Below, piece by piece: positions 1 to 4,738 of a DNA stretch of 6,747 bases (positions are counted from its first letter, which is position 1; every line of letters begins with the position of its first letter). The stretch comes from Thermoplasmata archaeon (lineage in GTDB: Archaea > Thermoplasmatota > Thermoplasmata > GCA-020350865): contig CP070672.1 of the NCBI GenBank assembly GCA_020351895.1, forward strand, positions 2,038,966 to 2,045,712, given 5' to 3'. The notes below the pieces were generated by a model that saw only the letters and a list, made by a program, of their open reading frames with translations, made no database searches and was not told the origin of the DNA. The position numbers and the translations under genes were made by a program.

Positions 1-271
1 AATCAGCAGAAGAACTCCCATCAATGCGGGTAACATTAACCCAGATGTAACTGTATCCTGATGTGTCCCATTTCTCGATATGGTATTTAAGCTCAGATGT
101 TCCATCCTCATCAATAAAACGCAGATCGGTGCCATCTGATTTCGCCTTGGAATAATCGAAATTTGCCGAGCTCAAATTTATCAGAACTGGGAAGTCTGTA
201 AGATTCTCAGTTTGTCCCAAGTTGTCAAATGTCAACCTTCTACGTAAGTTCCAGCTGTTGTTCCACCAGTC
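1..271 (-). other. DUF2341 domain, cut by the window start
   Basis: Residues 1490-1579 open with 'DWWNNSWNLRRRLTFDN' and continue 'LTDFPVLINLSSANFDYSKA', 'DGTDLRFIDEDG', 'ELKYHIEKWD' and 'YIWVNVTRIDGSSSAD'. This is the typical DUF2341 order, and the window stops just before the expected 'IYMYYGN' ending. The family usually precedes a LamG domain in secreted multidomain proteins and has no established biochemical role. Confidence 0.85.
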
Positions 272-3200
272 TAATCCACTGAAGTTAGGTGCTCCAACCA
301 AAACCTCGTTGTTGTTGCTGTTGTCGGTATCCTGGGCACCTGAAACCGAAAATCCGAATTTATCACCGTATCTTTCTCCTGTAATAATGACATCAGTAGA
401 GGAAGCAACATAGCTTGAGCTCCACGAAGCCCTTCCATAGAAAACATAGGCTTTTCCGTTTCCTGCATCAGGAGCACCTATTATCACATCATCCTTTGTG
501 TCAGAATCCACATTTCCGAGATCCGATACACTCCATCCAAAATGATCGCCAGCAGCTTCACCATAAATGGTGACATTGGCGTTGGAAGCATTGATATAAG
601 TTGAGTCTATACCTGAATATCCAAAGAATAAGTATGCTGCACCTGCGTCTTCACCAATGCCGATTTTCTGGGTGTATATATCATCGTCGCTTGCACCGTT
701 TCGCTCATCATCCCAGACTATGATTGCATAATCGTCCGAGCTTATAGTTACATCTGAGAACTGTTGGTAGGCGCTATCCAAGTTTTGATTGACCTTTATA
801 TCCAATCCTCCCCACTGATAATTTCCATTAGAGTCAAGTTTCTGGGCATATATGTCGTAATGACTCTGACTCCGATAATCGCGCCATGCTACAACAGCGT
901 GCCCACTTGATTTTACGGCTACAGCGGGATAATCCTGAAGAGGCACGGCTCCTCCATTTCCCGCTTGATTGACGAGTTTATCTGAAGAACCCCACTGATA
1001 ATCACCAGTGGCGTTGAGCTTCTGAGAATAGATATCAAAATTGCGGCTTTGATCATACCAAACGATAATCGAGTTTCCACTTGAATCACAGGCCACATCT
1101 GTCTGCGATTGATCACCAGACGTGTACCGATTGACTCGTTTGTCTGAGGCACCCCATTGCGCATCTCCGGTTGAATTAAGTTTCTGCGCATAAACATCAT
1201 AATTCGAACCACTACGATAATCAGACCAAGAAATGATTACATCTCCAGAAGAATCTATAGCTATTGCAGGGTCAGTCTGAGATCCTGTGGTGTACTGGTT
1301 AACCGGTTTGTCCGAAGCACCCCATTGTACATCTCCGGCAGAGTTGAGTTTCTGTGCATAGACATCCCAACCGCTGCGAGAATCCTTCCAGACAACAGTG
1401 GCATTACCCGTGGCATTGACAGCAACATCAGGCAAATCCTGGGCACCCAATGTATACTGATTGACCCGTTTGTCAGAAGAGCCCCACTGAGGGTCTCCAG
1501 TTGAGTTGAGTTTTTGGGCATAGATGTTCCAATTGCCATCGCGATAATCAGTCCATACAAAGTATGCATTCCCAAAGGAATCCACATCAACAGCTGGATA
1601 TTTTTGATCTGCGCTGTCCGAGTTCTGATTAACCTGAATATCTGAAGAACCCCACAATGTATTTCCGTCGGAGTCAAATTTCTGTGCTGAGATGTTCCAA
1701 TCGGTACCACGATCATCGGCCCAAACAACGATTGTATTTCCAGATGAGTCATTAGCTACTGCAGGATACTGCTGATTATCGGAGTTCGAATACTGGTTGA
1801 CCTTGATGTCGCTCGAATCCCAAAGATAGGTAGAATCGGGATCATAGTACGGTGCACCAACTATGATATCGGGGTATCCATCATCATTTATATCCCCTGC
1901 ATAGGATACATTCCACCCGAATCTATCGTTATCCTCGGACCCTGTACCAGTTACGACCTCAAGTAAAGTCTCAGCCCTGGTTCCTCTCGGTCCACTTATC
2001 GCCCCTTCGGTATTGGAATAATCCATGCTTCTTTTCTCCCAGTCGGTTGCCAAAAAATAAACCTCGAAACTTTCGTTAAACGGGTCGATATCAATATCTT
2101 CCCAATCAATCCCCACCTCCATTTTAATGGTGTCCAAACCAACTTCCACATTACCTTGCTCAACCCAGCTCCAATCCGATGTGTGCACTCCGGTCCATTC
2201 ATAGTAGACTTTACTCAACACACTGTTGTGCTTTCCGCTTATCTCGATCATATAGTCTGCTTCTATTGGTAGATCTTTGCTATATCCTGTACCTGTAACA
2301 GAATCAATGAAAATATATACAAAATCCTCACCAGTCTTTGGTGGAATAGGTAGCGGTGATCCCCCTCCAGGTCCAGGTTCTCCTCCCTTTTTGGGCTCAG
2401 GTTTAACTTTACTGTTCCAATAAGGTACTTCAACTCCACCACATATCTTATCATCTACCTCCAAATAGAAAGCCGGTCCATCGACAGTTTTCGAAACATC
2501 GTATTTCAGTATATCCAGGTCTTTGCGATCTACATCTCCTTCTGTATCGTTGCGTTTATTATCATCTTCCCAATCTGCAAAAGCGCCGTCTATACTCACG
2601 TTATAGGGGACGCTGAGCAAATAGCTTCTATCATTACGATTTCCCTCGGGCTTTTCGCGCTTCAAAGAAACAGTACCTTTATCTGTCACCACATCGTGAA
2701 TGTTCGCGATAATAAAGCCAATAGTCTTTCTTACTCCTGAATTCCCACCAACATCCACAGCAATATTAAGGGATCTCGTATCACCTTCTGCCAAACTCAA
2801 ATCAGGTAAAAATACCACTATACCGCCATTCATTTCCCCTGATACAACCAGATTACCAGTTTCATCCACAAGTCCTATCCCTGAAATATCATTATCGCTT
2901 CCTGATCCCGTTCTTGTTGCCCTAATCTCACTGACGATTATATCCGAATTCAGAGCCTTTAATTCGAGCTTGAGTAACTTATTACCATCACCACTTATGA
3001 CATCTTCGCCCACACCCTGTTGCGTTATCGATAGAATCCCTTCCTCATTGCTAATTACCGTGTCTGAGAAATCCTCGAATCTGTCCCAACTCTGCATATA
3101 GAACAGAACATCGACAGCATCATCTTTTCGCAGATACAAAGCGCTGAAGGAAACCTTCGCCTCTAGTTCCGAACCACTTACGGCAGAGGACACAGCACCT

Positions 3201-4738
3201 TCGATTCTCCATAGATTCCAGTCCTGATCCTCGCCTTCATAGCTGTAAAGGCTGCTGGCAATCACACTGCCATCCCAACCATATATTTCAAGCATGAAAT
3301 CTGCACCTATTCCTTTGACAAAATAACCCGAATCTGGGTCTTGGTTGGCGTCTATGAAGATATAGGCTGTGTCAACATGTTTTTCACCTTCAGGTTCATC
3401 TGGTTCACCAGCCAATATATCTCCTTCAACCTGCAAATAGAATGATAGCTCTAGTTCTCTATCATCCATACGATAATCAATGATGTCCACATTGCGGTTG
3501 AAAGACATGACTTCGTTGACATCAGAGGTTACAGTTAGTTTGCTCCAATCCTCAAACCTACCGTCGATTTTAATTCCTTGAGTTGGTTCTATTATATTTA
3601 CAAACATATAAGGTGAAAACACAAGGATAAGGACAATAATCGGCACTACAACGAGTTTCCATCTGCTTCGTTTGGATTCAAAAACACCTCTTCGTGTTCT
3701 AAGACCATTGGTTATTCCATTGCCATTCGTTATACCGTTGGTAATTCCTACCTTTAAGGCTCGAAGGCCATTTGTCAAGCCGTTTGTCAGCCCATTTGTA
3801 AGGCCATTGGTAAGTCCATTTGTTAACCCCTCCTTGACCTTTTTAATCCCGTTTGTTAGACCATTTGTCAAGCCATTTGTAAGATCATTAGTGAGCCCAT
3901 GCATCTCTTTTTTTATTCCATTGACCAAACCGTTTGTCAACCCAACAGGTTCTTTCTTGATTTCAAACTCTTCTGGAGGTTTTGTCTCTAGGCTTTCAGC
4001 TGATTCCAATTCAAGTATCTCACCCAACGCATCCTCCAATTCATCATTCTCGGAAACGAATTCCACACCGCATTTCGGACAAGATGAAGCATAGGATTCA
4101 ACAACCTCATCGCATGCGGGACAGGCAAACAATTCTTCTTCTTCCTCAGCAACAAGAATAGTACCGCAATCCTGACACTCAATTGCCCCGACATCAAGAG
4201 AGGCTCCACATTCGGAGCATTCATATTTTTCTGCTATCTCATCTTCTTGGAATTCCTCGGGAATTTCGTCCAGATCAAAGAACTTTAATCCGCAATTTGG
4301 ACAGGATTTGGCGTCGACCTCTGCTTTTTCCCCGCAATCGGGACATCTATAAATCTCAGTACCATCTTCTCCCGCCTCCAATAAGATCCTGTCAAGTTCC
4401 TTGGACAAGGTTTGAAGTTCATCTTCAAGTATGTAGAATTCTTCTTTCTGAGGTTTTTTAGGGCGAGCCTTTGAACGAACTGTTGTTAATTCATTTAATC
4501 CCTCTATATCTTCAAAGTTACAGCCGCATTCTTTACATTTGAGATCCTTTAGGGCCTCCTCCCTTGAAATTTGCTTCAGTCTGAACTTGCACTCTGGGCA
4601 CCTTGGTTTGTCACCTATATCTTTTGATATCTTATCCTCCGTTAGATAAACGTTGCATTTTTTACATTTGTATGAAGGTAGTTTAACCTTGGTTCCACAT
4701 AGGGGGCAGTCTTTCGTTGATTCATTCTCTTTTGGCAT
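1..4738 (-). CDS. Giant single-pass protein: five zinc ribbons, LTNG repeats, TM helix, CBM9-like/FG-GAP/propeller/DUF2341 ectodomain (3' partial)
   Basis: One open frame of at least 1579 codons runs from ATG 4738 past the window start; every codon read is sense. Residues 11-223 hold five CxxC...CxxC zinc ribbons with acidic, helix-prone linkers. Residues 266-345 hold 14 Leu-Thr-Asn-Gly-type tetrapeptides. A basic stretch (RTRRG...KRSRWK) precedes one transmembrane helix (360-380). The ectodomain has a CBM9/DOMON-like domain (389-559), a beta-sandwich-like domain (560-713), a second CBM9-like domain (714-908), an FG-GAP start (929-971), seven propeller blades (972-1362), more FG-GAP (1363-1489) and DUF2341 (1490 on). 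There is no N-terminal signal peptide, and the positive-inside rule puts the N-terminus in the cytoplasm. Role inferred: a surface adhesin or receptor with a cytoplasmic docking region. No enzyme motif is visible, and I know of no characterised protein with this architecture. Confidence 0.9.
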   Translation of the reverse strand, partial: MPKENESTKDCPLCGTKVKLPSYKCKKCNVYLTEDKISKDIGDKPRCPECKFRLKQISREEALKDLKCKECGCNFEDIEGLNELTTVRSKARPKKPQKEEFYILEDELQTLSKELDRILLEAGEDGTEIYRCPDCGEKAEVDAKSCPNCGLKFFDLDEIPEEFQEDEIAEKYECSECGASLDVGAIECQDCGTILVAEEEEELFACPACDEVVESYASSCPKCGVEFVSENDELEDALGEILELESAESLETKPPEEFEIKKEPVGLTNGLVNGIKKEMHGLTNDLTNGLTNGLTNGIKKVKEGLTNGLTNGLTNGLTNGLTNGLRALKVGITNGITNGNGITNGLRTRRGVFESKRSRWKLVVVPIIVLILVFSPYMFVNIIEPTQGIKIDGRFEDWSKLTVTSDVNEVMSFNRNVDIIDYRMDDRELELSFYLQVEGDILAGEPDEPEGEKHVDTAYIFIDANQDPDSGYFVKGIGADFMLEIYGWDGSVIASSLYSYEGEDQDWNLWRIEGAVSSAVSGSELEAKVSFSALYLRKDDAVDVLFYMQSWDRFEDFSDTVISNEEGILSITQQGVGEDVISGDGNKLLKLELKALNSDIIVSEIRATRTGSGSDNDISGIGLVDETGNLVVSGEMNGGIVVFLPDLSLAEGDTRSLNIAVDVGGNSGVRKTIGFIIANIHDVVTDKGTVSLKREKPEGNRNDRSYLLSVPYNVSIDGAFADWEDDNKRNDTEGDVDRKDLDILKYDVSKTVDGPAFYLEVDDKICGGVEVPYWNSKVKPEPKKGGEPGPGGGSPLPIPPKTGEDFVYIFIDSVTGTGYSKDLPIEADYMIEISGKHNSVLSKVYYEWTGVHTSDWSWVEQGNVEVGLDTIKMEVGIDWEDIDIDPFNESFEVYFLATDWEKRSMDYSNTEGAISGPRGTRAETLLEVVTGTGSEDNDRFGWNVSYAGDINDDGYPDIIVGAPYYDPDSTYLWDSSDIKVNQYSNSDNQQYPAVANDSSGNTIVVWADDRGTDWNISAQKFDSDGNTLWGSSDIQVNQNSDSADQKYPAVDVDSFGNAYFVWTDYRDGNWNIYAQKLNSTGDPQWGSSDKRVNQYTLGAQDLPDVAVNATGNATVVWKDSRSGWDVYAQKLNSAGDVQWGASDKPVNQYTTGSQTDPAIAIDSSGDVIISWSDYRSGSNYDVYAQKLNSTGDAQWGASDKRVNRYTSGDQSQTDVACDSSGNSIIVWYDQSRNFDIYSQKLNATGDYQWGSSDKLVNQAGNGGAVPLQDYPAVAVKSSGHAVVAWRDYRSQSHYDIYAQKLDSNGNYQWGGLDIKVNQNLDSAYQQFSDVTISSDDYAIIVWDDERNGASDDDIYTQKIGIGEDAGAAYLFFGYSGIDSTYINASNANVTIYGEAAGDHFGWSVSDLGNVDSDTKDDVIIGAPDAGNGKAYVFYGRASWSSSYVASSTDVIITGERYGDKFGFSVSGAQDTDNSNNNEVLVGAPNFSGLDWWNNSWNLRRRLTFDNLGQTENLTDFPVLINLSSANFDYSKAKSDGTDLRFIDEDGTSELKYHIEKWDTSGYSYIWVNVTRIDGSSSAD
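272..652 (-). other. FG-GAP propeller, continuation (blade 1 end, blade 2, blade 3 start)
   Basis: Residues 1363-1489 resume with 'EDAGAAYLFFGYSG', then blade 2 ('DHFGWSVSDLGNVDSDTKDD', 'VIIGAPDAGNGKAYVFYG') and blade 3 ('DKFGFSVSGAQDTDNSNNE', 'VLVGAPNFSG'). The Ca2+ loops of blades 2 and 3 are degraded compared with blade 1. Blade 3 breaks off after GAPNFSG and runs into DUF2341. FG-GAP propellers normally have seven blades, so more are expected outside the window. Confidence 0.85.
653..1825 (-). repeat. Seven tandem propeller blades (VVW.D.R...DIYAQKLN repeats)
   Basis: Seven repeats of 54-60 residues (972-1362) lie at 1658-1825, 1490-1657, 1328-1489, 1160-1327, 998-1159, 818-997 and 653-817. 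The shared pattern is [L/Q]W.[S/A]SD..VNQ, then PAVAVDSSGN, [I/V]VVW.DYR.G and DIYAQKLNSTGD. The same motif set occurs in many bacterial secreted proteins ('VVVWQS...IYAQRF'). The count of seven suggests one closed seven-bladed beta-propeller. Blades 2 to 5 are also similar at DNA level, implying fairly recent tandem duplication. The whole array lies within an FG-GAP blade. Confidence 0.9.
1826..1954 (-). other. FG-GAP propeller, first part of blade 1
   Basis: Residues 929-971 contain 'RFGWNVSYAGDINDDGYPD' followed by 'IIVGAPYYDPDST'. This is the classical integrin-like FG-GAP motif with an intact Ca2+ loop (D-x-N-D-D-G-x-x-D). The expected second half of the blade ('GAAYLFFG') does not follow here; it comes 391 residues later, after the seven-blade insertion. 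Confidence 0.85.
2015..2599 (-). other. CBM9/DOMON-like domain, copy 2, with Pro/Gly-rich loop
   Basis: Residues about 714-908 repeat copy 1: 'VSIDGAFADWEDD', 'AFYLEVDDKICGG', 'FVYIFIDSVTGTGYS', 'EADYMIEISGKHNSV', 'MEVGIDWEDIDI' and 'VYFLATDWEKRSMDYSN'. A Lys/Pro/Gly-rich loop (KPEPKKGGEPGPGGGS, about 2360-2400) sits just before the YIFID strand, where copy 1 has the shorter GEPDEPEGE. The two copies come from an internal duplication and have diverged far apart. Confidence 0.65.
2600..3061 (-). other. Beta-sandwich-like domain between the CBM9-like copies
   Basis: Residues about 560-713. The pattern 'KLLKLELKALNSDIIVSEI' then 'GSGSDNDISGIGLVDETG', 'SGEMNGGIVVFLPDLSLAEG' and 'RSLNIAVDVGG' resembles the repeated beta-sandwich modules of secreted archaeal and bacterial proteins whose consensus is a '.GTGND..DIS.V.LY' loop. 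I cannot name the family with confidence. It has no cysteines and no visible catalytic residues, and probably acts as a spacer or binding module. Confidence 0.5.
3062..3574 (-). other. CBM9/DOMON-like domain, copy 1
   Basis: Residues about 389-559 begin with the 'IKIDGRFEDWSKL' signature. They continue with 'LELSFYLQVEGDI', 'TAYIFIDANQD', 'GADFMLEIYGWDGSV', 'KVSFSAL' and 'VLFYMQSWDRFEDFSD'. The 'IDG.F.DW' opening and 'YIFID' core are shared with CBM9-like and DOMON-like beta-sandwiches that bind sugars or haem. I see no conserved haem ligand pair, so sugar or protein binding is likelier. A second copy lies at 2015-2599. Confidence 0.65.
3599..3661 (-). other. Transmembrane helix, N-in signal anchor
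   Basis: Residues 360-380 (WKLVVVPIIVLILVFSPYMFV) are, apart from Lys361 at the start, uncharged and strongly hydrophobic. They follow a segment with seven Arg/Lys (347-361) and precede an ectodomain that begins 'IKIDGRFEDW'. By the positive-inside rule the zinc-ribbon side is cytoplasmic. It would serve both as export signal and membrane anchor. Confidence 0.85.
3704..3943 (-). repeat. Leu-Thr-Asn-Gly tetrapeptide repeat region
   Basis: Residues 266-345 contain 14 tetrapeptides of the form [L/I]-[T/V]-N-[G/D] in groups of two, four, five and three. They are separated by short basic spacers (IKKEMHG, IKKVKEG, LRALKVG). Codons vary between copies: Leu is written TTG, CTG, CTT and TTA, and Gly GGC, GGG and GGA. 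The peptide is thus conserved while the DNA has drifted, which argues against recent slippage. The region sits between the zinc ribbons and the transmembrane helix. Function unknown. Confidence 0.92.
4070..4708 (-). other. Array of five zinc ribbons (cytoplasmic N-terminus)
   Basis: The Cys quartets are C11/14/25/28, C47/50/68/71, C132/135/146/149, C174/177/188/191 and C206/209/220/223. Four of the five have the compact CxxC-x10-CxxC spacing; the second has x17 between pairs. Knuckles read CPLCG, CPDCG, CPNCG, CSECG, CQDCG and CPKCG, as in archaeal double-zinc-ribbon proteins. Linkers are Glu-rich (EEEEE at 198-202), and residues 98-122 could form a short amphipathic helix. Such ribbons generally mediate protein-protein or nucleic-acid contacts; the partner is unknown. 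Confidence 0.9.

Follow-up and report, generated by a model that had tools for sequence, protein, structure and literature searches.

The window analysed here, 6,747 nucleotides from a Thermoplasmata archaeon (contig CP070672.1, positions 2,038,966 to 2,045,712), contains the first part of a giant gene that continues past the window start. Its product, P0001, is probably a membrane-anchored surface protein in which a seven-bladed FG-GAP propeller serves as a display hub and carries a second, complete propeller (the guest) in the loop between strands 2 and 3 of its blade 1. In our residue count, the first half of blade 1, FGWNVSYAGDINDDGYPDIIVGAPYYDPDST, ends at residue 985 and its continuation, EDAGAAYLFFGYSG, begins at residue 1378; the insert between them consists of seven repeats of 54-60 residues each. 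A first-pass annotation had proposed one beta-propeller set in a loop of another, and the present results support that proposal. The blade was said to be cut after VGAPYYDPDST (T985) and to restart at EDAGAAYLFF (E1378), which is exact after a shift of +15, the earlier residue numbers being 15 lower, as expected if numbering had started at the in-frame ATG at residue 16. The span given for the insert, 653-1954, does cover it but is too wide, since it corresponds to residues 944-1377 and includes the first half of the blade (Table 1).

The FG-GAP assignment of the outer ring, with its repeated FG motifs in strand 1 and GAP motifs in strand 2, rests on Pfam matches over P0001 to PF01839 (34.7 bits, cut-off 22.1) and PF14312 (28 bits, cut-off 23); the best FG-GAP stretch, residues 956-983, lies directly before the cut, and no FG-GAP match is listed inside the insert at expectation values (E) up to 0.5. 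Integrin alpha chains match P0001 at 1393-1498. Between strands 1 and 2 of blade 1 is a calcium-loop-like DINDDGYPD (residues 964-972, DxDxDG-like), and the insertion point follows the GAP motif. DxDxDG-like loops are not present in every blade of the related protein encoded at locus L001 of another Thermoplasmata archaeon (bin33). In the model made for P0001, model residues 1-28, which bear on whether an N-terminal segment supplies strand 4 of blade 7 as in integrins, have predicted local distance difference test (pLDDT) scores below 50.

The guest is, by prediction, itself a seven-bladed propeller. Each of its repeats scores 70.6-94.6 bits with a profile built from the guest repeats and those of the relative P0002, scores that are not independent because the profile was built from these repeats themselves. 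The guest matched no Pfam family above cut-off and no PDB sequence at E up to 1 (phmmer), and its repeats bear only a distant likeness to TIGR04275 (beta_prop_Msarc, 26 bits versus a cut-off of 85) and NF053835 (PDIAV_lipo, 37.8 bits versus a cut-off of 90). A short edge segment (W..SD..VN) opens the guest, and strand 3 of the final repeat is its last element. Given these termini, the guest probably closes on itself with its two ends side by side, in which case two short linkers could attach it to the outer blade and leave that blade unbroken.

In the mechanism that we propose, the integrin-alpha-type outer ring would act as a display hub, or socket board, for binding modules, with the strand 2-3 loop of blade 1 replaced by a complete, independently folding propeller. 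The N-terminal membrane span and a hydrophobic C-terminal segment, such as is present in the L001 protein and in the relative P0083, would anchor a surface arch, and the guests would stand on the face that propellers often use for partner binding. A likely use would be the crowding of several ligand-binding modules on one face for adhesion or substrate capture. LamG, DUF2341, LTD and DNRLRE modules, which are kinds usually tied to cell-surface binding, are present in P0001-type proteins or in the neighbouring gene; they speak against an alternative that accepts the nesting but takes the outer ring for an enzyme or a structural part of the surface layer instead of a hub for display. That alternative, which draws on the binding role being one that we infer and on the possibility of catalysis by propellers, as described in the available text for CylK (PMC8916777), appears unlikely but merits consideration.

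The number of repeats in the guest is constant. All 27 distinct closed inserts of this type (20, plus seven from a second scan) have seven repeats, in agreement with the earlier count for P0001. The architecture scan was made with loci L004-L023 set aside, and the 27 leave out the L002 rows (the P0002 protein), P0241 (identical to L028) and L069 (the L001 gene), as well as inserts that are open-ended at a protein end or at a gap of undetermined bases (N), i.e. the second of P0004, the third of L027, the first of P0007, P0020 and P0037, and the second of P0261. In relatives that lack FG-GAP half-blades there are 130 repeat runs, and 118 of these consist of 7, 8 or 14-16 repeats. The repeats of the P0001 guest are alike (mean identity 0.49), as they would be in a recently amplified, tolerated tract without a fixed ring; against such a tract stand the invariant count, a highest pairwise identity of only 0.59 and a repeat order that is kept between P0001 and L001 (7/7), L027 (6/7) and P0002 (5/7), compared with 1/7 for the blade-2 guest of L027. 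Nonsynonymous divergence (dN) across the guest, 0.15-0.21, is also far below synonymous divergence (dS), 1.4-3.5 and near saturation, which suggests that the guest has been retained by selection. We thus regard an amplified tract as very improbable. Because the same nest occurs in other records (63-75% identity over the region) and all 27 inserts have seven repeats, the arrangement is not a chance one.

The two FG-GAP halves flanking the insert are, on alignment, a single interrupted blade. P0083 and a further relative, P0095, have the same blade without an insert, 11 residues separating GAPY from GAAYIFFG; the first half of the blade is 25/28 identical to that of P0001 in both, and the second half 23/33 and 24/33, respectively. 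In a census of 355 proteins and frames, 875 of 919 neighbouring half pairs (strand 2 to strand 3) lie no more than 20 residues apart and 43 are separated by more than 40. Because this set was chosen by similarity to the P0001 family, includes a few duplicates and was scanned with half-blade and repeat profiles derived from family members, it does not represent a random sample. That the halves are instead separate blades, with the seven repeats merely a neighbouring domain in a string, might be argued from the FG-GAP match ahead of the insert, which spans only profile positions 2-27 of 37. The insert-free relatives, the short loops of the census and the total of seven blades that outer rings reach when the two halves are counted as one make this highly improbable.

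That total comes from relatives in which more of the outer ring can be seen. The L001 frame of 4377 codons has the same plan as P0001, with seven FG-GAP half-blades, and among the bin33 frames with at least two half-blades 8 of 10 have seven; of the others, L027 is cut by a gap and L025 has fourteen, which we read as seven outer plus seven inner. P0083 and P0113 have seven strand 1-2 half-blades each. The same two junctions as in P0001 recur in two records besides the window, with identities over the region of 70% for L001, 74-75% for L027 and 63-65% for P0002/L002. This recurrence, the low dN relative to dS across the guest and the lack of any N within the L001 gene leave almost no room for an in-frame assembly chimera of two surface-protein genes, even though genes of this kind are rich in repeats and 100-N gaps are present in the bin33 chromosome.

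Several observations weigh against the proposed nested architecture or limit its generality. The window itself shows only two and a half outer blades, ending in blade 3, and the 27 inserts represent fewer than 27 independent events and come mostly from metagenome contigs. P0249 and P0257 have eight detected half-blades, perhaps through a split blade being matched twice. Blade 3 of L028 (=P0241) is interrupted between strand 1 and strand 2, and in L001 and others there is a large insertion elsewhere in blade 4. The model of a whole outer ring with its guest (P0113 residues 740-1895) has a mean pLDDT score of 48.9, and for this reason leaves the relative placement of the two rings unsupported.

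Beyond P0001, it is reasonably likely, although we hold this with less assurance than the architecture of P0001 itself, that evolution in Thermoplasmata and relatives has produced a 'socket ring', an FG-GAP propeller the strand 2-3 loops of which have repeatedly taken whole rings and LamG modules that moved between blades and paralogues, so that a single protein may have as many as three guest rings (L027) or three nesting levels (rings inside LamG inside a blade of a ring). Judged by blade sequence and order, guests occupy outer blades 1, 2, 3 (P0261) and 5; L027 has three (blades 1, 2 and 5), the third running into N. The junctions of the 20 inserts from the first scan share, by eye, one common phase, with the W..SD segment at the start and the end after the third strand; exceptions at the start are F in P0016 and a divergent form in P0113. 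In 21 proteins selected because they carry inserts, gaps of more than 40 residues occur at 34 of 81 strand 2-3 positions versus 4 of 84 blade-to-blade positions, so that insertions favour the strand 2-3 loop without being confined to it.

Phylogenetic analysis placed the blade-1 guests of P0001, L001, L027 and P0002 in one clade (100/100), with the blade-1 guest of P0113 outside. Approximately unbiased tests (p-AU) rejected a single clade for all 22 inserted guests (0.0019) and for the blade-2 guests (0.004), and marginally so for the blade-5 guests (0.031); the value for the blade-1 guests including P0113 was 0.037. Single origins, whether of all guests or one per blade, are thus disfavoured by these tests, in which P0113 is a long branch, four row labels were assigned manually once the first tree was known, and two of the 22 guests are open-ended (the second of P0004, with six repeats, and the third of L027). 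As to distribution, 148 of 200 genomes of the class match whole P0001 at 1e-3, the matches listed being mostly to its N-terminal part, and 36 of 400 match a 616-residue segment at 1e-15. Among 116 frames of at least 300 codons in loci L041-L098, guest-free outer rings and free-standing guests are both present, and the nest occurs only in L069 (the L001 gene), a count that is an underestimate because only best loci with short flanks were covered. This distribution agrees with the insertion being derived, both parts having been present in the lineage beforehand.

Rings are not the only guests. DUF2341-LamG modules lie in the strand 2-3 loop of blade 3 in P0083, P0095 and L001 and of blade 5 in L001, and other propeller-type repeats were recognised by eye in blade 1 of P0003. 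In the window, the DUF2341 module likewise appears to sit in the strand 2-3 loop of outer blade 3. Blade 1 of L025 carries DUF2341, then seven FG-GAP repeats (2e-65), then LamG positions 72-151 of 151; the first LamG half, ahead of the FG-GAP repeats, was recognised by eye only. The same order was seen, by eye, in P0141, P0242, P0245 and P0261, with inner runs of 14, 12, 12 and 13 detected half-blades, respectively, P0261 coming from a 4.2-Mb Thermoplasmata contig, i.e. a second large assembly. In these five proteins LamG is seemingly split at the same point by 7-14 FG-GAP repeats within outer blade 1 (L025 residues 800-1980).

Comparison with known systems is based on the available text of the papers cited. 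Integrin alpha chains are cell-surface proteins with seven FG-GAP blades and an inserted alpha-I (vWA) domain (PMC3192720, PMC12422189), which is a single domain between blades 2 and 3, gained once in the tunicate-vertebrate ancestor (PMC10659397). The P0001 family shares with them the seven FG-GAP blades, as counted in relatives, and a folded domain inside the propeller of a surface protein, but the P0001 guest is a whole propeller, lies within blade 1 between strands 2 and 3, and has counterparts in other blades of relatives; no vWA match is listed in the Pfam scan of P0001. In CPSF160, as in DDB1, one propeller (bP3) is built from three discontinuous regions, so that the rings are not linear (PMC5760199). 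The likeness lies in one polypeptide having propellers out of linear order; DDB1 and CPSF160, however, are eukaryotic proteins in which three WD40 rings pack into a compact cluster and a helical domain lies at the C terminus, whereas the P0001 guest fills a single loop with one continuous stretch of sequence, belongs to another repeat family and is of a type that occurs in several blades. The Pfam matches listed for P0001, at E up to 0.1, include none of the DDB1/CPSF160 family. The RCC1-like propeller of UBR5, a ubiquitin ligase, has inserted UBA and dSBB domains, which are not propellers. The predicted fold of the guest resembles the C-terminal propeller of CylK (7roo), but the search of PDB sequences, with an E limit of 1, gave no match; CylK is an enzyme with its active site between the propeller and an N-terminal calcium-binding domain (PMC8916777). 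Prokaryotic integrin-type propellers have seven FG-GAP repeats with DxDxDG-like calcium loops, and are characterised as compact, regular structures in which loop lengths are conserved; the text available makes no mention of inserted rings (Chouhan et al. 2011, PMC3192720).

In that same text, none of the compared systems is described as having a whole ring set into a single strand loop of a second ring and gained repeatedly, and no description of one propeller inserted whole into another was found in the titles and abstract openings of the open-licence PMC papers that the search covered. Given integrin alpha-I, UBR5 and CPSF160/DDB1, we consider the nested rings to be a variation on a known kind of insertion, new in form. 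If correct, they would constitute a natural plug-and-display system arising by recursive domain insertion, rather than by end-to-end strings of domains. Domain insertion is usually thought to be hard, since the ends of the guest must meet and the host must survive; this family would represent repeated insertion at one structural point, with rings in rings as the outcome and one more nesting level in five proteins. The family would make testable why closed rings make good guests and which propeller loops tolerate them, and may offer a scaffold for multivalent display. Linear domain annotation would misread such giant surface proteins.

Table 1. Features of the giant gene and of P0001 in the window.
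Feature	Residues	Window positions	Strand	Basis or remark
Giant gene, 1594 codons		2..4783	-	Relative in L001: 4377 codons stop to stop, 4370 amino acids from ATG
N-terminal zinc ribbons	18-245	4049..4732	-	Pfam PF13248 and PF12773 above cut-off
TNGL-rich low-complexity tandem repeats	281-373	3665..3943	-	Sequence
Hydrophobic segment, predicted membrane span	372-401	3581..3670	-	Kyte-Doolittle 19-residue windows >1.6
Region before the outer ring, repeated IDGxFxDW motif (by eye)	405-930	1994..3571	-	
Outer (host) blade 1, strands 1 and 2, DxNxDGxxD loop and GAP	952-981	1841..1930	-	Pfam FG-GAP 956-983; model strands 959-963, 972-977
Inserted seven-repeat propeller (guest ring)	986-1377	653..1828	-	
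Outer blade 1, strands 3 and 4 (GAAYLFFG...VTIYGE)	1378-1411	551..652	-	
Outer blade 2, uninterrupted	1412-1472	368..550	-	Pfam; model strands within 489-539
Outer blade 3, first half	1473-1502	278..367	-	
DUF2341 module start, cut by window edge		2..268	-	Pfam PF10102 at 1550-1591

With respect to the remainder of P0001, the IDGxFxDW region probably comprises two similar domains, as judged from sequence; residues 401-928 (approximately 525 residues) gave no Pfam family at E up to 1, and the region has matches in many Thermoplasmata genomes. TNGL-rich repeats between the zinc ribbons and the membrane span are also present in several bin33 loci and in P0083. Gaps of 100 N interrupt the bin33 'chromosome' within or next to giant repeat genes (L001 7007-7106; L027 near the end of its 2487-codon frame), which makes it a scaffolded assembly. 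L002 (LJNI01000151), labelled candidate division TA06 bacterium DG_78, encodes the protein 63-65% identical to P0001 over the region, and may be an archaeal contig put in a bacterial bin. The ends of the window have no terminal overlap and share no same-strand 14-mer (first 900 versus last 1200 bases), and a circular or overlapping stretch was therefore rejected. Upstream of the giant gene, the 3' part of another frame (6747 to 4828, minus strand) encodes LamG, LTD and DNRLRE/CBM96 domains. It ends in an IPEF-hydrophobic-basic tail that resembles archaeosortase signals, which we take to be of the PEF-CTERM type, no family match having been obtained for it. By eye, this end also resembles the C terminus of the L001 protein, and two giant paralogues thus seem to lie in tandem in the window.
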